A stretch of DNA of 64,000 bases from a virus. Positions 2,803-58,274 of this stretch are shown here, piece after piece. The notes beneath the pieces are model-generated. The model made no database searches and had not been told where the DNA came from. It was given only the letters and a program-made list of their open reading frames with translations. The stretch spans positions 151,396 to 215,395 of IMG/VR virus record IMGVR_UViG_3300018004_000004, one strand, 5' to 3'. Every line of letters starts with the position of its first letter. The first letter of the stretch is position 1. Made by a program: the position numbers and the translations under genes.

Positions 2803-3408
2803 TTACCTCATGAAAAGAGCTTCATTGCCCAGCCAGCGTCTTGAATAAGACATAGCCGAGCTCATGTCACTGACGGCTCTCATACGCAGAGCCTGTGCGG
2901 TTTCCGTGTCCTGATAATCGCCACCCATTTCAATGTGGCGGAGTTTGTAGCCAAACTGACCTAAGAGCTTAGCGCCCTTAGCAGCAAGTAGCCCTACACG
3001 ATAAGAAGCAACTGCTGCTATGAAAGGAACTGTCAAAGGTGCTGCAGGTGCAAGCGCTGCTGGGAGCATGAATCTAGTTGCTGCTCCGATTATAGCTGAT
3101 GCCGCTGGGTAGGATGCTATTCCCACTGAGTTACCCACGAACGTAGGAAGAACTTCCCCACGCTGAGTATGGAAGGAAGAGAATGCTATCTGAGGAACAC
3201 CACCATAAAATCCTGGCCGATCAGAGTGCATCGGTTTCCAGTTATTCTGGAATGGCTTATGTGTTTGCTGGCGCTGAAACTGGACATAAGATTCCTCAGG
3301 TCCGTAGTTTGAGAGATCTTCATCACTCACACCATGTGGGACGTTGGGATTAAAACGACGCGCGACGACGCGAAGAGCATCGTCAGCAAACATAAGTACA
3401 TTTGGCAT
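2803..3408 (-). CDS. Unknown leftward (structural region) protein
   Basis: 201 residues with no family that I recognise. It has an Ala-rich hydrophobic stretch around residues 100-140 (AAVASYRVGLLAAKG) that could be a membrane-active or buried helix, between polar N- and C-terminal parts rich in Arg and Gln. The start overlaps the stop of the next upstream gene by one base, so the two are translationally coupled. It may be a virion or ejected protein. Confidence 0.6.
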   Translation of the reverse strand: MPNVLMFADDALRVVARRFNPNVPHGVSDEDLSNYGPEESYVQFQRQQTHKPFQNNWKPMHSDRPGFYGGVPQIAFSSFHTQRGEVLPTFVGNSVGIASYPAASAIIGAATRFMLPAALAPAAPLTVPFIAAVASYRVGLLAAKGAKLLGQFGYKLRHIEMGGDYQDTETAQALRMRAVSDMSSAMSYSRRWLGNEALFMR

Positions 3409-38197: not shown

Positions 38198-38273
38198 GGT
38201 GGATATAGGACAGCGGTTAGTCCGCCGGATTGTGGCTCCGGACACGTCGGTTCGAATCCGACTATCCACCCCA
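38198..38273 (+). tRNA. tRNA-His(GTG)
   Basis: Cloverleaf complete: acceptor GTGGATA/TATCCAC, D stem GGAC/GTCC, anticodon stem CCGGA/TCCGG with loop TTGTGGC, T arm GTCGG-TTCGAAT-CCGAC. C73 and CCA are encoded. The base before the acceptor is G and can pair with C73, so G-1 of tRNA-His is present in the DNA, as in bacteria. Confidence 0.97.
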
Positions 38274-42473: not shown

Positions 42474-42654
42474 CCGTACGATCCGAACCGCGGATAAAAC
42501 GGTGATCAACATCTCCGCGCAGCACGTCGGAGAGTTTCCAGAATGTGAGTTGAGAGCAGGTATATCACCATTCTATTTTCTCTTGACTACAGCACAGGTG
42601 AAGAAACTCATCAAAGCTTTGCAAGCTTATCTAACTTACAGGGAGAAACAGTGA
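42454..42654 (+). CDS. Small unknown protein
   Basis: 66 residues from the ATG at 42454 (GGGAGG 5 bases before). Beta N-terminus, helical C-terminus. It overlaps the previous gene by 20 bp. Confidence 0.55.
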   Translation: MIKDNFNRTIRTADKTVINISAQHVGEFPECELRAGISPFYFLLTTAQVKKLIKALQAYLTYREKQ

Positions 42655-43937
42655 TGGATGGTTGGGAAGGGGGCTTTGACGCTCCCGCAGTAAAAAGCAC
42701 GCATCAATGCGAGATCGTAAAGGTGTATCCCAAGGTACACCCGAATGCAGACAGATTGGAGGTCGCAGAAGTAGGTGGCTATTCCGTATGTGTGGGTAAG
42801 GGGGATTTTTGGGACGGTGAACTCGGGATATACATCCCTCCGGATAGTATCGTACCCGCGATCCCGGGGTTCAGCTTTGTGTGGGAAGGTAAAGGCTACA
42901 TTCCCGATTCGATTCCTGCTGGCAGCACGGCGGTTCCTGAAGTACCCCAGAAATACCGCAGAATCAAAGCTAAGACTCTTCGCGGAGTAATCTCCGAAGG
43001 TCTTTTGATTCCTATTCCGCAGACGAAGGACTTCATCGATCAACAAGGTGAGTGCTTCTTCAAAGAAGGAGATGACGTTGCGAAGGTCCTTGGTGTTACC
43101 CACTACGATCCACCGGATACGACGTCGTTGGGCGGCGATACCGAAGCTGCCCCTGGAAAGAGCGGAAAGAAGAGACGTTATCCGAAGTCTCTACGCGGAT
43201 GGTTTCGCTTCTTACTATCGAAAGTGGCTTTTTGGCGGCATCCGGTGGATGCCCAAGAGAGTACGAGCCTGGATATCCCAGACTACGACGTCGACGCCTG
43301 GCAGAAGTTCCGTGGAGCCCTGATAGAAGGCGAAGAAGTATGGATCACCGAGAAGATCCACGGGGCTAATAGCCGATTTGTTTATATAAGAGAAGCTGGT
43401 AGTGCTGCTTACGCTGGTCGTATGTACTGCGGTAGCCACCACCAATGGAAGAAGGAACTTCCTGGTTCTGCTTGGTGGACTTGCCTCAAACAGAACCTCT
43501 GGATCGAGGAGTTCTGTAGGCAATATCCCGGTCATGTTCTATATGGTGAACTGGTTCCTACCCAGAAGCCTTACATGTACGGGCAGAAGGATGGCAAGTA
43601 CCGTTTGTTCGCCTTCGACGTCTTTGATCTTTCTCGGCGTTGCTTTCTGAGCTACTCCGATCTCCTTGATCTGACGTGGTGCCATCTGTACGCGGAAGGC
43701 GAAGACTTCCAAGCGCGCGGCATCTTGAATGAAGTCCACTGGGTACCTACACTCTTTAGAGGGCCGTATGACCCTGGCGCCATGAGGACCTTGGCTGAGG
43801 GAGTTTCCATGGTTCCTCATGCCAGTCACATTCGTGAAGGGATGATCATTAAGCCTCTCACGGAACGTCGCGACAATCGTATGGGTCGCGTGATCATGAA
43901 GCTCAAGTCCGTGAAGTTCCTGGAGAAGGACAAATGA
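42654..43937 (+). CDS. RNA ligase with N-terminal OB-like domain (Rnl5/DraRnl type)
   Basis: 427 residues. The first 150 form an OB-type domain: CEIVKVYPKVHPNADRLEVAEVGGYSVCV, then GELGIYIPPDSIVP, as in Deinococcus-type RNA ligases. The ligase core has ITEKIHGANSRFVY with nucleotidyl Lys234 (K-x-x-G), YGELV, REGMIIKPL (motif IV) and MKLKSVKFLE (motif V). The Deinococcus enzyme seals 3'-OH/5'-phosphate nicks with an RNA 3' end. A basic loop (about 165-190) separates the domains. Works with Pnk at 36422. Confidence 0.85.
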   Translation: MDGWEGGFDAPAVKSTHQCEIVKVYPKVHPNADRLEVAEVGGYSVCVGKGDFWDGELGIYIPPDSIVPAIPGFSFVWEGKGYIPDSIPAGSTAVPEVPQKYRRIKAKTLRGVISEGLLIPIPQTKDFIDQQGECFFKEGDDVAKVLGVTHYDPPDTTSLGGDTEAAPGKSGKKRRYPKSLRGWFRFLLSKVAFWRHPVDAQESTSLDIPDYDVDAWQKFRGALIEGEEVWITEKIHGANSRFVYIREAGSAAYAGRMYCGSHHQWKKELPGSAWWTCLKQNLWIEEFCRQYPGHVLYGELVPTQKPYMYGQKDGKYRLFAFDVFDLSRRCFLSYSDLLDLTWCHLYAEGEDFQARGILNEVHWVPTLFRGPYDPGAMRTLAEGVSMVPHASHIREGMIIKPLTERRDNRMGRVIMKLKSVKFLEKDK

Positions 43938-47226: not shown

Positions 47227-47345
47227 GTTGGTGGTTCCTCGGACGTGGCGGCGATTGGAGAGGAAGATGTCTCCGTATCTGGCGCCGCAAGTACATTCGA
47301 AAACTCAGGAAGTCATTTCCTGAGAACTACAAAGGATCGATATGA
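47223..47345 (+). CDS. Trp/Arg-rich microprotein (MSWW type)
   Basis: 40 residues: MSWWFLGRGGDWRGRCLRIWRR, then KYIRKLRKSF. Similar in start and end (MSWW...LRKSF) to 50196-50315, so these two are likely duplicates. Confidence 0.5.
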   Translation: MSWWFLGRGGDWRGRCLRIWRRKYIRKLRKSFPENYKGSI

Positions 47346-48562
47346 AACTACCTGAACTGCTCAACACTGAGCTTCTCTGGGAGCATATCCTGAAGGGAGT
47401 AGTCTCCAGGACACAGCACCCTCAGTATCCTGAGCTCTGGGTATATAACTATACTCATGTGGCTCAGCATGACAACGTCTGGGATGACGTAACAGAACAG
47501 TGCCGCGGCTTGATTTGCCGACAGGACTGCGCTACTAGTGATTGGCATATGTGGCTCCTGAATCATCAGGAGGTCATTGCCAGGCCATTCCGTAAGTTCT
47601 TTAATCTGAACACAGGCTTCCGCCCAGAGACTCTCGAAGCTAACCTTCCGTCCTGGAAGCCTCGAGTCCTTGAAAAGCTCGATGGGTCTCTGGGAATCCT
47701 ATTCTGGCATACACACTTCCGAGAGGCTTTCATTGCCACCCGCGGGTCGTTTGCCTCCGAACAAGCTATCTGGGCCACTAAGTGGTACCGAGCTAGGTTT
47801 GGTAACTGGCCTGTTGCTGACTCGGCCAGCTGGCCAAAAGGCTACACGCCTCTCTTTGAAATCATCTACGATGAGAACAGGATTGTGGTGAACTATGACT
47901 ACCAAGCCCTTGTTCTTCTGGGCCTCGTCAACATCGCTACTGGTGCTGAGCTACCGCCTGAGGAAGTGGTTCTCTGGGCAAATAAGAACGGCCTACGAGT
48001 GCCCACTGAATATGCCAAGTCACTTGAGGAATGTAAATCCGAAGAGAGCAAGAATATTGAAGGTTTTGTTCTCCAGTATTGGAATCCCGAAACCAAAGTG
48101 CCCTTTCGGCTCAAGATCAAGACGGAGGATTATATAAGGCTTCACAAGGTGATTACTGGCCTGAATCCTAAAGGAGTATGGGAACATCTCTCTGAAGGAT
48201 ACGACCCGGCAGCTCTTTGGATGCCTGCCCTTCAGAATAAGCAGTTCGTAAGCTGGTGTCAAGGATGGATCAAGACATTCCAGGATCTTTATGCCAAGTA
48301 CGAGAGTGAAGCGATTACTGCGTTTGGCCAGGCATCAATCAAGGCTCTTGCGGGACTGCGGTTGGAAAAGTCCCCTGACGCAAGGCTTGTTCGGAAGCAC
48401 TATGCTCTGGCTTTTCAGGCGGAGGACTCGAAGTATCAGCCCACCTTCTTTGCCATGCTGGACGGCAAGGATTTCAAGAAGTGTCTCTGGGCCTTGTTAG
48501 AACCTAAAATCCAAGGGAAGGATGTGTTCATTCGCGATGCAGACACCAACAACGGAATATAG
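47342..48562 (+). CDS. T4 Rnl1-like RNA ligase
   Basis: 406 residues. Rnl1 features: ARPFRKFFNLN, then LEKLDGSLGIL with the nucleotidyl Lys112 (motif I K-x-D-G), FEIIYDENRIVVNY, NIEGFVLQYW (motif IV) and RLKIKTEDYIRLHK (motif V). The helical C-terminal 130 residues match the tRNA-contacting domain expected of Rnl1. It should reseal tRNAs cut in the anticodon loop by host defence nucleases after Pnk has repaired the ends. This is a second RNA ligase next to the Rnl5-type at 42654. Confidence 0.9.
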   Translation: MKLPELLNTELLWEHILKGVVSRTQHPQYPELWVYNYTHVAQHDNVWDDVTEQCRGLICRQDCATSDWHMWLLNHQEVIARPFRKFFNLNTGFRPETLEANLPSWKPRVLEKLDGSLGILFWHTHFREAFIATRGSFASEQAIWATKWYRARFGNWPVADSASWPKGYTPLFEIIYDENRIVVNYDYQALVLLGLVNIATGAELPPEEVVLWANKNGLRVPTEYAKSLEECKSEESKNIEGFVLQYWNPETKVPFRLKIKTEDYIRLHKVITGLNPKGVWEHLSEGYDPAALWMPALQNKQFVSWCQGWIKTFQDLYAKYESEAITAFGQASIKALAGLRLEKSPDARLVRKHYALAFQAEDSKYQPTFFAMLDGKDFKKCLWALLEPKIQGKDVFIRDADTNNGI

Positions 48563-48755
48563 TCCGATCGTGCAGTGGCGTCTTAACGAGAAGCTCCAGG
48601 GGAGCTACTACGTTAAGTATGGCACTGGAGATATTGCCTGGAAGAAGATTGACACGGATACTGCTCAGATGTTGCTAGCAGTAGGTTGCGTATCTTTGCC
48701 TCCACTTCTGGCCGGGCCGGCATACACAGGCAGAATGGTACAAGTCTACGTATGA
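48537..48755 (+). CDS. Small unknown protein
   Basis: 72 residues from the ATG at 48537 (an ATG at 48522 is the alternative, closer to AGGGAAGG). Aromatic beta start (YYVKYGTGDIAWKKI) then a Leu/Ala-rich end. It lies between the RNA ligase and Thg1 genes and overlaps both. Confidence 0.5.
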   Translation: MQTPTTEYSPIVQWRLNEKLQGSYYVKYGTGDIAWKKIDTDTAQMLLAVGCVSLPPLLAGPAYTGRMVQVYV

Positions 48756-49459
48756 GCGACGGTATTGGGATACGGATGAAGGAGCAGTATGAGAATAGGT
48801 CTCTTTGCTTATTGCCGAGACGCACTTATACCATCATCCGTGCCGACGGGAAAGCCTTCCATTCCTATACTCGAAAGCTCAGCCGTCCTTTTGATAGCCT
48901 GCTCATCCAGTGCATGGATCGGGCGGCTATCACGATGTGCGAGAGTATACAAGGGACGAATCTTGGGTATGTACAGTCCGACGAGATATCGCTGATTCTG
49001 ACGGACTTTGCTACCAAAGACACGGCGGCCTGGTATGACAACAACTTACAGAAGATTGTATCTGTCGCGGCCAGCATCGCTACGATGGCTTTTAACGAGA
49101 GGGCCCGAGAGCTTGGGCTTCATCCAACGGCTACGTTTGATGCTCGGGCGTTCGTTATACCCGATCGCGAAGAAGTTATGAACTACTTCGTGTGGCGCCA
49201 GCAAGACGCAACACGAAATAGCATTCAGTCTGTAGCTCAGTCAATGTACTCGCCAAAGGAACTGCATGGCAAGAACTGTGATATGCTACAGGAGATGATC
49301 TTCCAGAAAGGAACGAACTGGAATGACTTGGCGCCCATTCTCAAGCACGGCCGCGCAATCATTAAAACTGAACAGGGCTGGGAAGCCGATAGCAACACCC
49401 CTGTATTTACTCAAGATAGAGCATATCTTGGCCAAAGGATACCAGTTCCCGGGTACTAA
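48752..49459 (+). CDS. Thg1-like 3'-5' nucleotide transferase
   Basis: 235 residues. IIRADGKAFHSYTRK (Asp32) and LGYVQSDEISLIL (Asp77) are the two metal-binding parts of the Thg1 family, with the palm fold shared with polymerases; MYSPKELHGKN and FQKGTNWND also match. Eukaryotic Thg1 adds G-1 to tRNA-His; bacterial, archaeal and phage relatives (TLPs) repair truncated 5' ends of tRNAs with the 3' side as guide. The tRNA-His here already encodes G-1, so 5'-end repair is more likely. Confidence 0.9.
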   Translation: MSDGIGIRMKEQYENRSLCLLPRRTYTIIRADGKAFHSYTRKLSRPFDSLLIQCMDRAAITMCESIQGTNLGYVQSDEISLILTDFATKDTAAWYDNNLQKIVSVAASIATMAFNERARELGLHPTATFDARAFVIPDREEVMNYFVWRQQDATRNSIQSVAQSMYSPKELHGKNCDMLQEMIFQKGTNWNDLAPILKHGRAIIKTEQGWEADSNTPVFTQDRAYLGQRIPVPGY

Positions 49460-52168: not shown

Positions 52169-52296
52169 AGTGCGCAATGCTGCGCGCGGACTTTTATCGA
52201 TTGGATCCGAATATCTGGGGCCACCTGCGCTGCACCTGGAGGTTCTTTGATAAGTACGTCATGTTTCGAAGGATCGGCAGATGGATGCTCCCTTAG
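52165..52296 (+). CDS. Trp/Arg-rich microprotein
   Basis: 43 residues; ATG in the previous stop. CTWRFFDKYVMFRRIGRWM holds the shared W-x-x-F-D-K-Y-type order, close to SWRFWGKYGGKR of the next protein. Confidence 0.5.
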   Translation: MKCAMLRADFYRLDPNIWGHLRCTWRFFDKYVMFRRIGRWMLP

Positions 52297-52433
52297 CTCC
52301 GATTAAGACCATATCCAGGTTCTACAAAGGACATTGGTTGAGGCTAGCTATTAGCTGGCGCTTCTGGGGTAAGTATGGCGGTAAGCGCATCGAAGCGCAA
52401 ATCAGGAAATGGAAAGAGGAAGCATTTGGATAA
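52281..52433 (+). CDS. Trp/Arg-rich microprotein
   Basis: 50 residues; overlaps the previous one by 16 bp. HWLRLAISWRFWGKYGGKRI, then a charged helix (QIRKWKEEAFG). Confidence 0.5.
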   Translation: MDAPLAPIKTISRFYKGHWLRLAISWRFWGKYGGKRIEAQIRKWKEEAFG

Positions 52434-52707
52434 GCAACAAATCAACGTAGGTGTTGGCGGAGTTATGAGTGTGCCGGCACCAGCACCAGTTCTAATGGAA
52501 AGTTTCGAACAGCTCGAACAAGAGCTTTTGAATGGGCATTCGAACTTCATTATGTGCTATGAGGCACATAAGACGGATCCTGAGACTAAAATCCAGGAGA
52601 CGATCACGATCAAGAATGAGATGCCGATTCCCAATGATGAGCCTATGGCTTTCGCCCTTGTGGAGTTGGCAATGCGGAATCCTAGGGTTAGGATTCTGAA
52701 GGTTTGA
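52426..52707 (+). CDS. Unknown small protein
   Basis: 93 residues from a TTG with AGAGG 6 bases before; an earlier ATG at 52375 overlaps more of the previous gene. Helix (ESFEQLEQELLNGHSNFIMCYEAH), then beta strands and an Ala/Arg end. It stops 3 bp before the RNase P RNA. Confidence 0.5.
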   Translation: MDKQQINVGVGGVMSVPAPAPVLMESFEQLEQELLNGHSNFIMCYEAHKTDPETKIQETITIKNEMPIPNDEPMAFALVELAMRNPRVRILKV

Positions 52708-52710
52708 GAG

Positions 52711-53353
52711 ATTGGTGGGCCGGACGGCCGCGGGCGCAAGCTCGAGGAAAATAGGGCCATCATAGAGCAAAGGAACCGATGAAAGTCGGGGGTCGAAAGG
52801 CTACGAGGTACGGGAGGTTACTAACCTAATCCCTTCCTGATGCAAACCCAAATAGGACGGTGAGACTGCTCGTCGTTGTAACCCGTCGGGTAGGGTGCAT
52901 TGGACAATCTAATGAATACGTACAAAACTCGGAAAGCGAGAAATCAGAAACGTTGGAGAAAGAGCCCAGCGGGCATTAAATACCTGAAGAGTAAGGCTTT
53001 CCGAGATAGTACGCGTGAGTCAAATAGGAAACGTGATAGGGAATATCGAGCTGAAATCCAGAGAAGGGTTAGAGCCGAGAAACTAAGGAGAGGTTGTAAG
53101 AGGTGTAAGTATCACAAACACTTCGCTGCCTTAGAGTTCCATCATCGGAATCCTAAGCTCAAAAAGTTTAGATTGTCCGAAAGCAGAAACTACTCTTGGC
53201 CTATGGTCCAGAAAGAAATGGCAAAGTGCGATGTTTTATGCGCTAACTGCCACGCCATTCTGGAGTTCAGAAAGCTACAGAGGAAAGCTTCTGCTTAGAC
53301 GGATGGCCGTCGCCTCGCAAGAGGCACAGGAGCCCTTTTATAGGCCCACCAGT
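52711..53353 (+). ncRNA. rnpB: RNase P RNA with an HNH gene inserted in the P18 region
   Basis: Conserved parts of bacterial RNase P RNA occur in order. P1: ATTGGTGGGCC 52711-52721 / GGCCCACCAGT 53343-53353. P2: GACGGCC 52723-52729 / GGCCGTC 53305-53311. P3: CGGGC-GCAA-GCTCG. Then GAGGAAAATAGGGC (CR-I) and, at the far end, CACAGGAGCCCTTTTA (CR-V), which pair as P4 with a single bulged U (52752), exactly as in known RNase P. CR-II (CATAGAGCAAAGGAACCG), a P11/P12-like part (GTCGAAAGGCTACG, GGGAGGTTACTAACC), CR-IV (GCAAACCCAAATAGG), P15 (GACGG/CCGTC), CGGGTAGGGTGCATTGG and, after the HNH frame, TTAGACGGATGGCCGTC complete it. Without the insert it is about 255 nt, with P8, P9 and L15 GGU lacking. 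It should cut 5' leaders from the tRNAs around it. Confidence 0.9.
52912..53298 (+). CDS. HNH endonuclease encoded within RNase P RNA
   Basis: 128 residues from the ATG at 52912 (a TTG at 52900 is the alternative). Very basic N-terminus (about 60 residues of Lys/Arg), then CKRCKYHKHFAALEFHHRNP and CDVLCANCHAILEF: two Cys pairs for zinc and the HH-x-N core of the HNH family. The stop TAG is part of the conserved TTAGACGGATGG stretch of the RNase P RNA, so gene and RNA share bases. A homing gene that uses a non-essential stem (P18) as its site is the likely origin. Confidence 0.85.
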   Translation: MNTYKTRKARNQKRWRKSPAGIKYLKSKAFRDSTRESNRKRDREYRAEIQRRVRAEKLRRGCKRCKYHKHFAALEFHHRNPKLKKFRLSESRNYSWPMVQKEMAKCDVLCANCHAILEFRKLQRKASA

Positions 53354-53368
53354 ACAGATCGGAGAACC

Positions 53369-53701
53369 GTGGCTAATCAACAGCCTAGATATGATCCTCC
53401 AGGAGGAGTAGAAGCTCTTCTGACTGCTCTTGAGAAGTCTCTTCGCAATGGCTATTATAGCGTTGAGGCAGAAGAGAAAGATCTGGTTGATGCGAAGAAA
53501 GATCTGGCTAATAAGAAAGCATCTTATGAGTATGCGCTGGCTTCTGTGGCAGAACATGAGATGAAGGTAAAGAAAGCTCGCCGTAAAGCAGCGGAGATTG
53601 TCAATGCTCTCGGCAAGCTGGATTGTCCTGAAGAAGTTATCAAGGCGTCGTGTAAGCCTTTGAATGCACATGACATTGCTGAATGGATTAGGGCCGAGTA
53701 G
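53369..53701 (+). CDS. Coiled-coil protein ending inside tRNA-Ile
   Basis: 110 residues from a GTG with GGAG 5 bases before, 15 bp after the RNase P RNA. Helical with heptads (VEAEEKDLVDAKKDLANKKASYEYALASVAEHEMKV region). The last three codons and TAG lie in the acceptor stem of tRNA-Ile, so cutting the tRNA removes the end of the mRNA. Confidence 0.6.
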   Translation: MANQQPRYDPPGGVEALLTALEKSLRNGYYSVEAEEKDLVDAKKDLANKKASYEYALASVAEHEMKVKKARRKAAEIVNALGKLDCPEEVIKASCKPLNAHDIAEWIRAE

Positions 53702-53767
53702 CTCAGTTGGTAGAGCAGGCGGTCGATAACCGCCAGGTCGTAGGTTCGAATCCTACCTCGACCACCA
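53692..53767 (+). tRNA. tRNA-Ile(GAT), with odd bases
   Basis: D arm GCTC/GAGC, anticodon stem GGCGG/CCGCC with loop TCGATAA (anticodon GAT), T arm GTAGG-TTCGAAT-CCTAC, A73 and CCA encoded. Two oddities: the acceptor GGCCGAG/CTCGACC has a C3-A70 mismatch, and base 33 is C where U is nearly universal. It may be impaired or have a special use. Overlaps the upstream CDS by 10 bp. Confidence 0.9.
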
Positions 53768-53782
53768 GTTTGAAAGGTGAGC

Positions 53783-53971
53783 ATGAAACACATGGTTTGT
53801 AGTGTGGGTCCAAGACGTTACATCATCCGCGATGAAGCGGGTAACGTATTGAAGGATGAGCAGATAGAGTTGATTCAGTTCCGTGATGCTGATGGAAATA
53901 CAAAGTATATCAACCCTGTTCATTCACTCGCCTGGTCAAGTATGATGGATTTGTACAGAAAGGAGTCCTGA
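53783..53971 (+). CDS. Small unknown protein
   Basis: 62 residues; AAAGGTGAG before the ATG. Beta-rich (RRYIIRDEAGNVLKDEQIELIQF). Stop overlaps the next ATG. Confidence 0.55.
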   Translation: MKHMVCSVGPRRYIIRDEAGNVLKDEQIELIQFRDADGNTKYINPVHSLAWSSMMDLYRKES

Positions 53972-54132
53972 TGTTAGGTAGGGACTATGCTGGAGAGATG
54001 GTGAGAACTCGACAAGCCAAATCAGCCATTCTGGCTGTTTTGGGCGTCTGGGTTGCCATCGTCTTAGGTAACATACTCTTTTGGGGCGGATTGATCTACG
54101 CTGCTGTTCACTTCGCTCGCAAATATTGGTAG
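53971..54132 (+). CDS. Small one-helix membrane protein
   Basis: 53 residues; AAAGGAG before the ATG. Charged start, one long membrane segment (ILAVLGVWVAIVLGNILFWGGLIYAAV), basic end. Confidence 0.55.
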   Translation: MLGRDYAGEMVRTRQAKSAILAVLGVWVAIVLGNILFWGGLIYAAVHFARKYW

Positions 54133-54139
54133 TATCTAA

Positions 54140-54228
54140 GCGGGAATGGCGAAAATGGTAGCCGCGGAGGACTTAAAATCCTCTGGGTCTGATCCCCCGT
54201 GTAGGTTCGAGTCCTACTTCCCGCTCCA
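54140..54228 (+). tRNA. tRNA-Leu(TAA)
   Basis: Class II tRNA: acceptor GCGGGAA/TTCCCGC, anticodon stem GAGGA/TCCTC with loop CTTAAAA, long variable arm (GGGTCTGATCCCCC), T arm GTAGG-TTCGAGT-CCTAC, CCA encoded. Base 73 is T where Leu tRNAs usually have A, which may weaken charging by LeuRS. Confidence 0.93.
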
Positions 54229-54254
54229 AAAACAAGGAGAGGATAAACAATCCC

Positions 54255-54842
54255 ATGTTGACTGTGTTCCTGGTGATTGCCGGAATCATTTTGCTTCTGG
54301 CAGTTCTTTCAGTTCTCGGCAGTTTGAACAAGTACCTCAGGGCTAAGACTGCGCTGGTCGAGGCTAAGACCGCGTTAGTCGAAGCCGAGACTGAGGATTT
54401 CCTGAATCAAGAACCTGAAGACGAAGACGAAGATCTGGACGAAGGTCCGGATTACAACCCATACGAAGAGGGGCTCGGCGAACGGACAACGATCGATCCG
54501 GCCATCCTTTTGAAGATGCTTGCCCTAGCGCGCGCACTGCGAGCACATCGACAAGCACAAGAACAAGTACAGACCGCTGATCAGACTGAACCAGCTCCCG
54601 ATCCGGAAACGGCAGAAGTGCCGGCCGGCGTGACAGCTGAAGCAGTCGGAATCACCGGAACAACTGGTCCCGTGGCAGATCCGGCAACGGATCCGACTCC
54701 GGACCCCACAATGACTGATCAGACAACGGCTCCGGCAACGGATGCGACGCAGACTGATCCAACGCCTGTTACCGTCCCTGACGCAACTGGCGATTCAACA
54801 GCAGTCGATCCGACAACCGAAACTGGATCTCCAGTCGGATGA
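54255..54842 (+). CDS. Membrane-anchored acidic low-complexity protein
   Basis: 195 residues. N-terminal membrane segment (VFLVIAGIILLLAVLSVLG), a short helical repeat (AKTALVEAKTALVEAETE), an acidic stretch and a long tail of Asp, Thr, Pro and Ala. The tail should be unfolded. Function unknown. Confidence 0.6.
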   Translation: MLTVFLVIAGIILLLAVLSVLGSLNKYLRAKTALVEAKTALVEAETEDFLNQEPEDEDEDLDEGPDYNPYEEGLGERTTIDPAILLKMLALARALRAHRQAQEQVQTADQTEPAPDPETAEVPAGVTAEAVGITGTTGPVADPATDPTPDPTMTDQTTAPATDATQTDPTPVTVPDATGDSTAVDPTTETGSPVG

Positions 54843-54853
54843 GAAGAGGCTAA

Positions 54854-55126
54854 ATGCCTCCTGCAACGTTCATTATAGTAAGGAACGAAGCCGATCAGGC
54901 AGTTAGGACATACCGTAACCAGATGGTCTGGGGACAGTTCTTGTTTCGAGCTCTGCGGCGCGAGCTAAAGGGCAAATCAAAACAGGAAATCCTAACTGCC
55001 TGTGAGGCAGTTCGCGGGGAGATAGAACAGAGGTCTCTGCATATCCCCCACGATCGAATGATGCTCCTTAAGGAGCTTGGTAAGATTAGAGAAGAGTTTC
55101 TTGGGGCCACTAACTCAACTGGTTAG
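54854..55126 (+). CDS. Small helical protein ending inside tRNA-Lys
   Basis: 90 residues, mostly helical and basic (RRELKGKSKQEILTACEAVRGEIEQR). Its last seven codons lie in the tRNA, with the TAG in the D loop (23-bp overlap). Confidence 0.55.
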   Translation: MPPATFIIVRNEADQAVRTYRNQMVWGQFLFRALRRELKGKSKQEILTACEAVRGEIEQRSLHIPHDRMMLLKELGKIREEFLGATNSTG

Positions 55127-55180
55127 AGTACCAGCCTCTTAAGCTGGGAGTTCAGGGTTCGAATCCCTGGTGGCCCACCA
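55104..55180 (+). tRNA. tRNA-Lys(CTT)
   Basis: Acceptor GGGCCAC/GTGGCCC, D arm ACTC/GAGT, anticodon stem CCAGC/GCTGG with loop CTCTTAA, T arm CAGGG-TTCGAAT-CCCTG, A73 and CCA encoded. Overlaps the upstream CDS by 23 bp. Confidence 0.96.
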
Positions 55181-55194
55181 ATATTGGAGGTAGT

Positions 55195-55311
55195 ATGTCG
55201 CGACAAGGAAAACCCTGTATATTTCAGCGGTGGTGCTGGTATGATGGTTGGAGGCACTACTTCTTTGGCGCGATCTACTTTTGGAATGTGATTACGAAAG
55301 AAGGGGCCTAA
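55195..55311 (+). CDS. Trp-rich microprotein
   Basis: 38 residues; TGGAGG before the ATG. FQRWCWYDGWRHYFFGAIYFWN is a dense aromatic run with Arg and His, like the other members of the set. Confidence 0.5.
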   Translation: MSRQGKPCIFQRWCWYDGWRHYFFGAIYFWNVITKEGA

Positions 55312-55646
55312 TGAACGTTTGGGTTAGTCCCTGGCGGTGCGATCCTCCTCATAGGATTTCGCACCCCGAGAAGTTGGACGAGTTAACTCGTTTACTTGCC
55401 AAAGGATGGGGTAAAGGACATCCTGCATTAGTAGGTTATCCTTATGGCGAGCGGATTCAGCTCCTATCTGGGAGCCATCGAATCGTAGCTGCCCAACGCG
55501 CGCACTTGAAAGCCATTCCTCTAGTTCTTTGGTCCGCTGAGCAGGTTGAAGCTTGCTGGGGTGATCTCGATCTCTGGAAGCAAATCATGGACGCCCCACC
55601 GGTAAACGGATTGGAGTTCGGTTATGTCATTCAAAGAGTTCCATGA
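55311..55646 (+). CDS. ParB/sulfiredoxin-fold-like protein
   Basis: 111 residues. PHRISHPEKLDELTRLLAKGWGKGHPALVGYPYGERIQLLSGSHR, then IVAAQRAHLKAIPLVLW: the GSHR-x-x-AA-x-x-A-x-x-x-IP pattern is that of ParB-like nuclease/NTPase domains. The ATG overlaps the previous stop. No DNA-binding helix-turn-helix follows. Role unknown. Confidence 0.7.
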   Translation: MNVWVSPWRCDPPHRISHPEKLDELTRLLAKGWGKGHPALVGYPYGERIQLLSGSHRIVAAQRAHLKAIPLVLWSAEQVEACWGDLDLWKQIMDAPPVNGLEFGYVIQRVP

Positions 55647-55722
55647 GAAGTACCACGGCGCAATCATCTTGGTGATTGTAATGATCCTTGGTATAATCCT
55701 TATATGTACCGCGGGTAGGTAA
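55624..55722 (+). CDS. Tiny one-helix membrane protein
   Basis: 32 residues: charged start, then AIILVIVMILGIILICTAG. Overlaps the ParB-like gene by 23 bp and ends directly before the next ATG. Confidence 0.5.
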   Translation: MSFKEFHEKYHGAIILVIVMILGIILICTAGR

Positions 55723-56289
55723 ATGGACTGGTTTACAGCCGACCCACATTTGGGTCACTTCAACATCATCAAGTACTGCAATCGTCCTTTCAAGGACGTC
55801 GACCATATGGGGACGGTGATCATTGATAATATCAATGAACGTGTCGCGACGAACGATCGACTGTATATCCTGGGAGATATTGCGAATAAGGAAGTGTACG
55901 TCCAGGACTTCGTCAAAAGGGTCTCCTGTAAGAATCTTTTCGTTGTCCCTGGCAACCACGATAAAGAAAAGATCCTCCTTCGATACTTTAAGGTATTGCC
56001 TCAATGCTACTTGTATCGCGCCCCTGGAGAGGATTACAGGATAGTTCTATGCCACTATGCAATGCGCGTTTGGGAACATTCTCACCATGGCGCCGGCATG
56101 CTGTATGGTCATTCACACGGTGGACTTCCACCTGTTCCTGGAGCCCCCTCCTTCGATATCGGCGTGGACGCATGGGAATACAGGCCTCTGTCCTTAACCG
56201 AAGTCAAAGCCGAAATGAAGAGACTATGCGCTCTGGCGCTAGCCAATAGAGAGTTCATGCATCATGACGGTGAAGAAGAGGGCTCTTAG
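55723..56289 (+). CDS. Calcineurin-like metallophosphoesterase
   Basis: 188 residues. Motifs in order: FTADPHLGHFNIIKYCNRPF (Asp7, His9), LYILGDI, VVPGNHD, LCHYAM and YGHSH. This is the phage/bacterial single-domain phosphoesterase type; substrates of relatives range from cyclic nucleotides to RNA ends. Its last codons and TAG lie in tRNA-Met (10-bp overlap). RNA 2',3'-cyclic phosphate is a reasonable guess here. Confidence 0.88.
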   Translation: MDWFTADPHLGHFNIIKYCNRPFKDVDHMGTVIIDNINERVATNDRLYILGDIANKEVYVQDFVKRVSCKNLFVVPGNHDKEKILLRYFKVLPQCYLYRAPGEDYRIVLCHYAMRVWEHSHHGAGMLYGHSHGGLPPVPGAPSFDIGVDAWEYRPLSLTEVKAEMKRLCALALANREFMHHDGEEEGS

Positions 56290-56357
56290 CTTAGATGGCC
56301 TAAAGCGCCGGCCTCATAAGCCGGGGATCCCTGGTTCGAATCCAGGAGAGCCCACCA
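56280..56357 (+). tRNA. tRNA-Met or -Ile2 (CAT)
   Basis: Acceptor GGGCTCT/AGAGCCC, D arm GCTT/AAGC, anticodon stem CCGGC/GCCGG with loop CTCATAA, T arm CCTGG-TTCGAAT-CCAGG, A73 and CCA encoded. The paired first base and lack of the GGG/CCC anticodon stem rule out an initiator. Elongator Met or lysidine-type Ile cannot be told apart here. Confidence 0.95.
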
Positions 56358-56371
56358 AGAAAGGAAGTGCA

Positions 56372-56668
56372 ATGTTCGCAGTCGTATTGTTTGAGTCACG
56401 AAATCAATGGGCCTCATTGGCCAGTCAGCCGGGAGGCACATGTGCTTTTCCGTTTGTGCCACCCTATGCTACACTTTATGATGGGTTTGGTAAACCCGAT
56501 CCAGGACTGAAGACTCTTGCAGAAGCAAAGGCAAGAGTCGAAGTTTGGGTAGATAAGAATAAGCCCACGCGATTTAAGGCTTACGTCATCGACCTGGAAA
56601 AGGACAAGATAGTCGCCACGACTGGCGAACTGAATGTCCCGTCACTGAAGTGGAAGGCTTTGAAGTAA
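56372..56668 (+). CDS. Small unknown protein
   Basis: 98 residues from the ATG at 56372 (AAAGGAAG before). Beta-rich with a helix AEAKARVEVWVDKN and a strand FKAYVIDLEKDKIVATT. No family recognised. Confidence 0.6.
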   Translation: MFAVVLFESRNQWASLASQPGGTCAFPFVPPYATLYDGFGKPDPGLKTLAEAKARVEVWVDKNKPTRFKAYVIDLEKDKIVATTGELNVPSLKWKALK

Positions 56669-56673
56669 CGAGT

Positions 56674-56723
56674 TTAGGGGAAATATTACGCCCCTAATGT
56701 AGTGCCCCTCACCCTATCGGGTG
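56674..56723 (+). promoter_or_regulatory. Two hairpins upstream of ssb
   Basis: TTAGGGG / CCCCTAA (56674-56680 / 56691-56697) and CACCC-TATC-GGGTG (56710-56723). No T-run. They separate ssb from the previous gene; the second ends 14 bp before the ATG and could affect ssb translation. Confidence 0.45.
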
Positions 56724-56737
56724 GGACAGGAGGTAGT

Positions 56738-57136
56738 ATGTCGTTTGATTTGAACAAAGTGATGCTGATCGGTCGTGTTGGTCGCGATCCTGAGAGCAAA
56801 ACTGCAGGTAGCACAACTCTGTCTTCGTTCTCGGTTGCCACGTCGTACGGCACCGGTGACAAGCAGAAGACTGAATGGCATCAAGTTACCGCTTGGGAGA
56901 AGCTGGGTGAGTTTGCCCAGAACTATCTCCACAAGGGTGACAAGGTGTACGTCGAAGGCCGTATCTCCTACAACATCGTTGGAGAAGGTAAGGAAAAGAA
57001 GACGTACGCCCAAATCACGGCCACGAGCCTGATCAACCTGAGCCCAAAGCCGGCTGACGGCTCCACGGCTAACTCCAGCTCTGCTGCACCTGCGGCCCCG
57101 GCTGCTGCTGCAACGGACGAAGATATCCCGTTCTAA
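56738..57136 (+). CDS. ssb: Single-stranded DNA-binding protein
   Basis: 132 residues; AGGAGG before the ATG. OB fold of the bacterial type: NKVMLIGRVGRDPE, then FSVATS, TEWHQVTAWEKLGEFAQNYLHKGDKVYVEGRI, and KKTYAQITATSL. An Ala/Ser linker leads to the acidic tip DEDIPF, which binds partner proteins. Used in replication and recombination. C/G-ending codons and flanking hairpins suggest strong expression. Confidence 0.97.
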   Translation: MSFDLNKVMLIGRVGRDPESKTAGSTTLSSFSVATSYGTGDKQKTEWHQVTAWEKLGEFAQNYLHKGDKVYVEGRISYNIVGEGKEKKTYAQITATSLINLSPKPADGSTANSSSAAPAAPAAAATDEDIPF

Positions 57137-57162
57137 GGAACGAGACAACTTCAAAGAAGATT

Positions 57163-57192
57163 AGGGGGAAGAGGTCTTCCCCCTTTCTTTTA
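57163..57192 (+). terminator. Intrinsic terminator after ssb
   Basis: Stem GGGGGAA / TTCCCCC with loop GAGGTC, followed by TTTCTTTT. Confidence 0.8.
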
Positions 57193-57205
57193 GAAAGGAA
57201 TGATG

Positions 57206-57310
57206 ATGACACCTTTCATGTGTTTCCTGGTCGGTATAGTCGTTGGACTTCTGCTGGCCGCCGTCATTTGCATCATAGCTTTGTTCTTGATCGGAATCAC
57301 TTCGGATTAG
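57206..57310 (+). CDS. Tiny one-helix membrane protein
   Basis: 34 residues from the third of three tandem ATGs (GAAAGGA is best placed for it). Almost wholly a hydrophobic helix (FMCFLVGIVVGLLLAAVICI). Confidence 0.5.
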   Translation: MTPFMCFLVGIVVGLLLAAVICIIALFLIGITSD

Positions 57311-57319
57311 GAGACCAGA

Positions 57320-58039
57320 ATGCCGAAACTGCTGGCGTGGAATCTTTCCCGCCTGAAAACGAAATCCCGCCCGTTGACCGGGCCACTTCCTGAGCTCTAT
57401 GTCAGGGAACTTACACGCATGGTGGAGGAGCTAAATGGCGTCTACCTTTCTGGGATACAAGTGGGGGATCCGCGGAGATTCGCTATCCCTAACCCTCGCT
57501 TCAAAGATTTCCCGATATTGTACAATCCTGAGATTATTGCACAGGACGACCCCATACGAGGAGAAGGTGAAGGGTGTCTTAGCTTTCCCGGCTTGTGGGT
57601 TCCGGTATCACGGTACACATACGTTACAGTGAGGTATCGAGATGGCCAATGGCAAGAGAGAACTGCCGTATTTGGTAATGAGGATCCCAATACTGAGGAA
57701 GCGCTCCTTGCTAAGGCTGTCCAGCACGAAGTAGCTCACATGGATGGCATTGTCCTCCATGATCGTATTGCGGACCCACAGAAGAGGATAAAGATCTATG
57801 CTCAGATTCTTCGGGAGTCCCTTGCCCAGAACAGATCTAGAGGGATACCTCAACTTTTGGAAGGCCCATCCGAAATGGATCCTCTTACTGTGTCGATCGT
57901 CGCGGTTTCTCCGGAGCCGGTACTCGGCGATCAAGAGCAAGCGAGTGTTGGAAATGATGAAACTGTTCATGAGCCCAATGTGAATGGAGATCAACCCAGT
58001 GAAGTGGAAAACACCGCCTCCGAAGCCAGTAACTCCTGA
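57320..58039 (+). CDS. def: Peptide deformylase with acidic C-terminal extension
   Basis: 239 residues. All three motifs are present: VYLSGIQVG (Gln47), EGCLSFPG (Cys86) and QHEVAHMDG (His136, Glu137, His140), giving the metal site. It removes formyl groups from new proteins. Residues 165-239 are an extra, acidic, disordered-looking tail not found in cellular enzymes. Phage deformylases are known from marine phages, where they may favour phage proteins. Confidence 0.93.
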   Translation: MPKLLAWNLSRLKTKSRPLTGPLPELYVRELTRMVEELNGVYLSGIQVGDPRRFAIPNPRFKDFPILYNPEIIAQDDPIRGEGEGCLSFPGLWVPVSRYTYVTVRYRDGQWQERTAVFGNEDPNTEEALLAKAVQHEVAHMDGIVLHDRIADPQKRIKIYAQILRESLAQNRSRGIPQLLEGPSEMDPLTVSIVAVSPEPVLGDQEQASVGNDETVHEPNVNGDQPSEVENTASEASNS

Positions 58040-58226
58040 GGGCGCTACTTACTACTGTAAGACATTCGCCTGGTTGCCTCATCAGGCTTCCGATGGATAT
58101 ACCTACTGGCTAGAGAGCGTCTACGTACAAATGAAGTTCATGCATGGCCGCGTCTCCGGCCGAAGGTATTGGTATATCGCAGAGTGGATAGGAAACAAGG
58201 CTCCTGAAGGCGAAGTGGATAGCTAA
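57984..58226 (+). CDS. Small aromatic protein ending inside tRNA-Cys
   Basis: 80 residues, starting within the deformylase tail (56-bp overlap). Aromatic second half (YTYWLESVYVQMKFMHGRV, RRYWYIAEWIG). The last nine codons and TAA lie in tRNA-Cys (27-bp overlap). Confidence 0.55.
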   Translation: MEINPVKWKTPPPKPVTPEGATYYCKTFAWLPHQASDGYTYWLESVYVQMKFMHGRVSGRRYWYIAEWIGNKAPEGEVDS

Positions 58227-58274
58227 CGGTCTGCAAAACCGTCGTAGCTGGTTCGAGTCCAGCCGGGAGCTCCA
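58200..58274 (+). tRNA. tRNA-Cys(GCA)
   Basis: Acceptor GCTCCTG/CGGGAGC (one T-G), anticodon stem ACGGT/ACCGT with loop CTGCAAA, T arm GCTGG-TTCGAGT-CCAGC, T73 (normal for Cys) and CCA encoded. D stem is short (GGC/GCT). Overlaps the upstream CDS by 27 bp. Confidence 0.93.

Follow-up and report, generated by a model that had tools for sequence, protein, structure and literature searches.

A phage RNase P RNA gene with an HNH endonuclease gene built into it

Can one and the same RNA encode a protein and also work as an RNase P ribozyme? A direct test of this question is offered by a locus in a 215,395-bp virus record of IMG/VR (IMGVR_UViG_3300018004_000004), of which we analysed the last 64 kb (64,000 nucleotides, positions 151,396 to 215,395; hereafter the window, in whose own numbering the features are given). 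A first-pass annotation, made from the letters of the window, had read positions 52711-53353 as a phage RNase P RNA carrying an HNH nuclease gene, and this is confirmed by the present analysis: the segment holds a bacterial class A RNase P RNA, encoded by the phage and interrupted by an HNH gene. If the explanation that we propose below is true, the phage has a ribozyme of its own for trimming tRNAs, and a homing nuclease has entered a functional RNA gene needing neither an intron nor an intein.

RNase P RNA on the two sides of the open reading frame

When the region was searched with the Rfam bacterial RNase P covariance model, a check that the first-pass annotation had itself proposed, the 5' part was matched by RF00010 at 52730-52917 with 53.2 bits and E 4.5e-15 (model positions 19-313, in a 1.7-kb search; E 1.4e-16 in the genome-wide search), with the match ending where the HNH open frame begins. 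The score is below the family gathering score of 100 because the insert cuts off the 3' part. After the open reading frame (ORF) come the remaining conserved parts, namely TTAGACGGATG, ACAG... and the 3' strands of helices P1 and P2; this 3' part alone obtains only 7.2 bits (E 1.1), yet it is in register with model positions 264-367. It is noted that UCUAAUGAAU, just before the ORF, which was aligned by Rfam to conserved region (CR) IV, is taken to be a chance extension, the true CR IV lying after the insert. The parts of the RNA are as follows.

52711..52898, + strand: RNase P RNA 5' part, from the P1 5' strand to P15-P17 and L15 (RF00010 E 4.5e-15)
53295..53353, + strand: RNase P RNA 3' part, comprising CR IV TTAGACGGATG, the P2 3' strand, a hairpin, CR V and the P1 3' strand (in-register RF00010 alignment; P1/P2/P4 pairing)
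52711..52721, + strand: P1 5' strand, 11 bp with 53343-53353, present in the minimum free energy (MFE) fold
52723..52729, + strand: P2 5' strand GACGGCC, 7 bp with 53305-53311
52749..52757, + strand: P4 5' strand AAA(U)AGGGC with bulged U 52752, 8/8 Watson-Crick pairs with 53332-53339 GCCCUUUU
53330, + strand: G of CR V, where the other 38 phage versions compared have A (ACAGGA instead of ACAGAA; E. coli A351 by our own alignment)

It had been claimed that P1 and P2 close across the insert and that P4 forms with a single bulged U, and both claims hold. P1, P2 and P4 taken together give 26/26 pairs in the correct order, as compared with a mean of 17.4 and a maximum of 22 among 3000 dinucleotide shuffles of the 3' segment, with the P4 pairing of CR I and CR V being exact (52749-52751 and 52753-52757 with 53332-53339). 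P4 is usually the most conserved helix of RNase P RNA, and the window version differs from other P4 versions by several double changes. Among 39 distinct phage versions all eight pairs form in each, that is, a pairing of 100% vs 68% (maximum 75%) when the partners are shuffled, and the 5' strand of the window pairs 8/8 with its own 3' strand vs 3.9 on average, and at most 5, with those of the others. Loss of the P1, P2 and P4 pairing in related phages had been named beforehand as a ground for giving up the reading; what is found is heavy covariation with P4 kept in all 39 distinct versions. At the level of sequence, then, the identity of the RNA and its pairing across the insert can be regarded as established.

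As in cellular class A RNase P RNAs (RF00010, rnpB), the conserved regions are in order and P1, P2, P4 with its bulged U and P15-P17 are present. Unlike these, the RNA in the window is phage-encoded, has a reduced specificity domain and no recognisable P18, carries a protein gene inside and has one CR V base changed.

The HNH gene, its insertion site and a second embedded case

The gene interrupts the RNA after the P15-P17 domain and before the TTAGACGGATG block, with its stop codon inside the latter.

52912..53298, + strand: HNH endonuclease ORF, 128 aa, ATG 52912, TAG 53296-53298 (PHROG HNH family phrog_2255, E 1.4e-23)
52899..53294, + strand: insert with the HNH gene, its exact ends ambiguous within a few nt (TGC at both ends), with empty-site equivalents in P18-less phage RNAs, e.g. 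L227

The earlier description of an inserted HNH frame of about 128 codons that stops within the conserved RNA is borne out by the PHROG match, while Pfam HNH gives the protein 15.1 bits only, under the cut-off. The motif C..C...FHH...C.VLCANCH, with zinc-type cysteines and HH/NCH, is common to three HNH proteins. About 383 of the 396 bases of the insert are coding.

The position of the insert can be read from the P18-less phage RNAs, of which there are many. In these RNAs GGGTNG..GC runs uninterrupted into TTAGA, with ...GC followed directly by TTAGACGGATGG; at the empty junction of L227, GGGTTGAGAGC is joined directly to TTAGACGGATGG, whereas in the window the insert stands between GGGTAGGGTGC and TTAGACGGATGG. 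Comparison of this type of direct junction with the window therefore places the insert exactly between GC and TTAGA. This is the P15/CR IV junction, which is the place of P18 in cellular RNAs and is empty in many phage RNAs. The earlier claim that the insert sits at the place of P18 is thus right as to the junction, while the insert need not have displaced a P18, since many phage RNAs have none; the earlier limits, 52906-53292, are refined to about 52899-53294.

The same arrangement was sought in other phages, and a second HNH insertion was found at a different site in a 360-kb phage (L035), whose record carries the phage hallmarks Gp23 capsid protein (1.3e-95) and terminase (5.7e-20). Here RF00010 spans the insert (650 nt, 118 bits), and the HNH gene interrupts the specificity domain; GTGAAACG precedes it and GGCAATCTC follows it, whereas L046 and others have this block unbroken. 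The closest relative of the HNH protein of the window is that of L030, with 54% identity, and the two form a clade with support 98/95; the L035 protein falls outside the 22-row clade (94/88) that holds them, in a tree whose bootstrap is not fully settled. From this placement it is likely that the L035 HNH gene comes from a separate lineage and was inserted independently of that in the window.

HNH genes are also found no more than 3 kb away from a phage RNase P RNA gene at 14 further loci (L013, L030, L032, L044, L208, L213, L225, L233, L237, L244, L247, L248, L255 and L257), directly after the RNA in L013 (about 50 nt) and in L030, where the HNH gene begins 8 nt past the end of the RNase P RNA. 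When 50 records of other HNH relatives were searched with RF00010, two matches were obtained, one of them about 13 kb from the HNH gene, so that members of this HNH family are not in general associated with rnpB. The other match (L201) is weak and, on reading, spurious. An HNH query of bacterial genomes gave no relative.

Predicted fold of the insert and its explanation

The insert of the window is predicted to be much more structured than its shuffles (z -6.66), and to form two domains.

52900..53180, + strand: insert RNA domain 1, closed by the 13-bp helix 52900-52912/53168-53180, with 11 perfect bp 52902-52912/53168-53178
53181..53296, + strand: insert RNA domain 2, abutting domain 1, closed by the 8-bp helix 53181-53188/53289-53296

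In this predicted fold the leader of the HNH gene pairs with the middle of the ORF and the next bases pair with the 3' end of the ORF; the ends of the insert are joined by base pairing, with no splicing signals. In the full RNA the closing helices have base-pair probabilities of 0.97 (domain 1) and 0.96 (domain 2), vs about zero in synonymous shuffles (0/99 for each). The expected number of pairs between insert and ribozyme is 3.4, vs 30.9±14 in the synonymous shuffles, none of which is as low (0/99), and about two of the 3.4 belong to the 3' helix, which uses the TT of the flank. With the codons of the helix arms fixed, the shuffles still give 27±13 such pairs (0/100 as low as the window). 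The L035 insert is likewise predicted to form two abutting domains that, closed by helices of 12 and 7 bp, cover its 331 nt exactly, and to have 0.05 pairs to the ribozyme vs 36.6±11.8 in synonymous shuffles (0/150). By contrast, HNH genes outside rnpB (n=14) have 9-89 such pairs, none being as low as the two embedded cases, and that of L030 has 28.7; most of the 14 fall within their own shuffles and 3/14 lie below all of theirs, with only 12 shuffles per gene. Prediction thus shows the insert as closed and insulated from the ribozyme in both the window and L035. Note also that in both predicted folds the start codon is at the end of the 5' arm of the first helix, by which translation may be held back too.

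We propose, as the probable explanation, that an intron-less HNH homing-type gene resides inside the phage rnpB and that its own coding RNA serves as a scaffold for the folding of the ribozyme. In this explanation, a small HNH homing-type endonuclease gene would have invaded a phage RNase P RNA gene of class A type without an intron, and the transcript would remain one RNA. The leader and the coding sequence of the HNH gene would fold into two abutting closed domains, which would bring the halves of the ribozyme together in place of P18 and would keep the coding RNA off the ribozyme core. The ribozyme would use the RnpA of the host to trim the many tRNAs of the phage, and the HNH protein would cleave the insert-free rnpB of co-infecting phages, which would then acquire the gene through repair. 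The closed fold may owe its existence to a need for the ribozyme to function while the insert is present. As for homing, it is no more than hinted at by the location of the insertions, in two phages, at conserved sites.

Several observations weigh against this explanation. P2 is missing from the predicted MFE fold (probability 0.03), as it is also when the insert is removed; P4, as a pseudoknot, is beyond the scope of the secondary-structure folding used. While the conserved blocks themselves are present, the G at 53330 occupies an otherwise invariant position of CR V, and because 38 other phage versions have A there the activity of the window RNA is not certain. Moreover, among the records examined, an HNH gene inside rnpB is seen in only two cases and no near relative was seen to have the site empty, and no obvious ribosome-binding site was seen for the HNH ORF.

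The main rival explanation, which we regard as unlikely, is excision in the manner of an intervening sequence (IVS), where RNase III would cut the closing helices, the coding piece would be lost or translated separately, and a two-piece RNase P RNA would be held together by P1, P2 and P4. It is known that fragmented 23S rRNA works in pieces. The closed helices predicted at the ends of the insert agree with such excision, as do the nearly continuous helices of 12, 5 and 8 bp predicted at the 5' end of the L035 insert, and in Coxiella a 23S rRNA IVS with an S23p ORF is excised in this way (PMC4990558). However, at 13 and 8 bp the closing helices in the window are shorter than the 28-bp stem of Coxiella, they close two separate domains rather than forming one long terminal stem, and the 3' helix draws on bases of the conserved TTAGA. 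The 23S rRNA IVSs with S23p ORF, present in Coxiella and Leptospira (PMC4990558), resemble the insert of the window in being ORF-bearing inserts of about 400 nt in a structural RNA, with no intron and with the ends paired together, whereas in the window the host is a phage RNase P RNA, the ORF is an HNH nuclease, and instead of one terminal stem there are two predicted domains, adjoining each other and closed by the leader and the coding sequence. Since the host RNA is an RNase P RNA, the insert is not filed as an rRNA IVS. Rather less likely still is that the insert has inactivated the RNA, leaving a decaying rnpB pseudogene that merely houses the HNH gene. This would be consistent with the A-to-G change at 53330 and with the RF00010 score below the gathering score, but P1, P2 and P4 are intact, the other conserved blocks are kept, and the insulation of the insert fold, which a pseudogene would not need, is far beyond chance.

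Two further explanations have been rejected. That the HNH gene is carried by a self-splicing intron is highly improbable: group I introns in some phages do carry HNH genes, as with I-PfoP3I (PMC3428280), but nearly the whole insert is coding, so that an intron core could not be accommodated outside the ORF, and no Rfam intron matches at E<=1, with lax filters, across 52201-53900. Scarcely to be expected, too, is that the HNH protein is not a homing nuclease but an RNA-guided or RNA-bound partner of the RNA, as in an IscB/HEARO omega RNA system. In its favour, a structured RNA and an HNH gene would share one transcript; however, the HNH-only protein of 128 aa matches ordinary phage HNH families and is too short for the RuvC-HNH architecture of IscB, the RNA is by Rfam an RNase P RNA and not an omega RNA, and the HNH of L035 is at another site and elsewhere in the tree.

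Returning to the intron-less insertion, it can be compared with two kinds of known nuclease genes. The homing-endonuclease insertions in rRNA genes of the Candidate Phyla Radiation (CPR) are likewise mobile nuclease genes inside structural RNA genes, but there the nucleases are for the most part LAGLIDADG enzymes, in many cases borne by group I introns and removed from the RNA (PMC11270868). The free-standing phage HNH endonucleases (phrog_2255, phrog_3106) belong to the same protein family, but the HNH gene of the window, unlike those tested, lies in a ribozyme gene and its RNA is predicted to be folded shut. Whether the two embedded cases represent a whole class of mobile elements, able to enter functional RNAs with no need for splicing, is to us evenly balanced; in such a class, the coding sequence of the nuclease would be selected as a closed scaffold, the ribozyme would still work, one transcript would be both enzyme and messenger, and large phages would offer such elements a recurrent home in their RNase P RNAs.

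RNase P RNAs in other large phages and the neighbourhood of the locus

The phage of the window is not alone in having an RNase P RNA: such RNAs are common in large phages. Dozens of RNase P RNAs were picked up by pattern scans of IMG/VR, on contigs up to 463 kb. In a chosen set of 50 records, from which some small contigs with rnpB of cellular or prophage-edge appearance were left out, 49 have an RF00010 match at E<=1e-3, 35 of them above the gathering score. Phage hallmark genes are present in several of the rnpB-bearing records, and many of the RNAs lie within tRNA arrays. An RnpA gene was found in 0/40 such phage records, and therefore host RnpA would be needed. With blastn against named phages no phage rnpB was obtained, the window, L031 and L040 being unmatched and L205 matching only a Salmonella genome record. 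The open literature yielded no paper on phage RNase P RNA, subscription papers being outside the search; viral RNase P RNAs, common in large phages and with P4 varying freely, thus appear undescribed in the open papers searched.

Some of these RNAs are very small (L058 9782, L084 9038, L094 12495 and L125, minus strand), with P4 intact and almost no specificity domain, on phage contigs up to 328 kb; where Rfam spans the small RNAs (G071, G072 and G077) they are 158 nt long, with 73-79 bits. In L040, at about 3040-3340, a P18-less phage RNase P RNA has a long ORF-free insertion on the P3 side, with CR I far from P1.

A second record of the phage of the window (L008/L027, 99.99% identical) has the identical arrangement of RNase P RNA and HNH gene. 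The record of the window has a portal-like match of E 7.7e-11, under the family cut-off. A promoter scan was uninformative (2 found vs 3.2 expected from shuffles). The RNA gene was also said to lie next to tRNAs, and indeed the record has 31 tRNA genes, with five (53692-58274) downstream of the RNase P RNA gene, beginning as follows.

53692..53767, + strand: tRNA-Ile (ARAGORN), the first of the five

A second cluster, of 25 tRNA genes, lies in the same record outside the window (G000:C1:63610-72483). Upstream of the RNase P RNA gene, a tRNA-His guanylyltransferase is encoded at 48686-49459 (phrog_4717, E 2.1e-75), and the phage has a tRNA-His at 38199-38273, both of which bear on the 5' end of tRNA-His. 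Finally, we note that two RNA ligases and a peptide deformylase (42651-43937, 47342-48562 and 57320-58039) near the RNase P RNA and tRNA genes make up a neighbourhood of translation and RNA repair.
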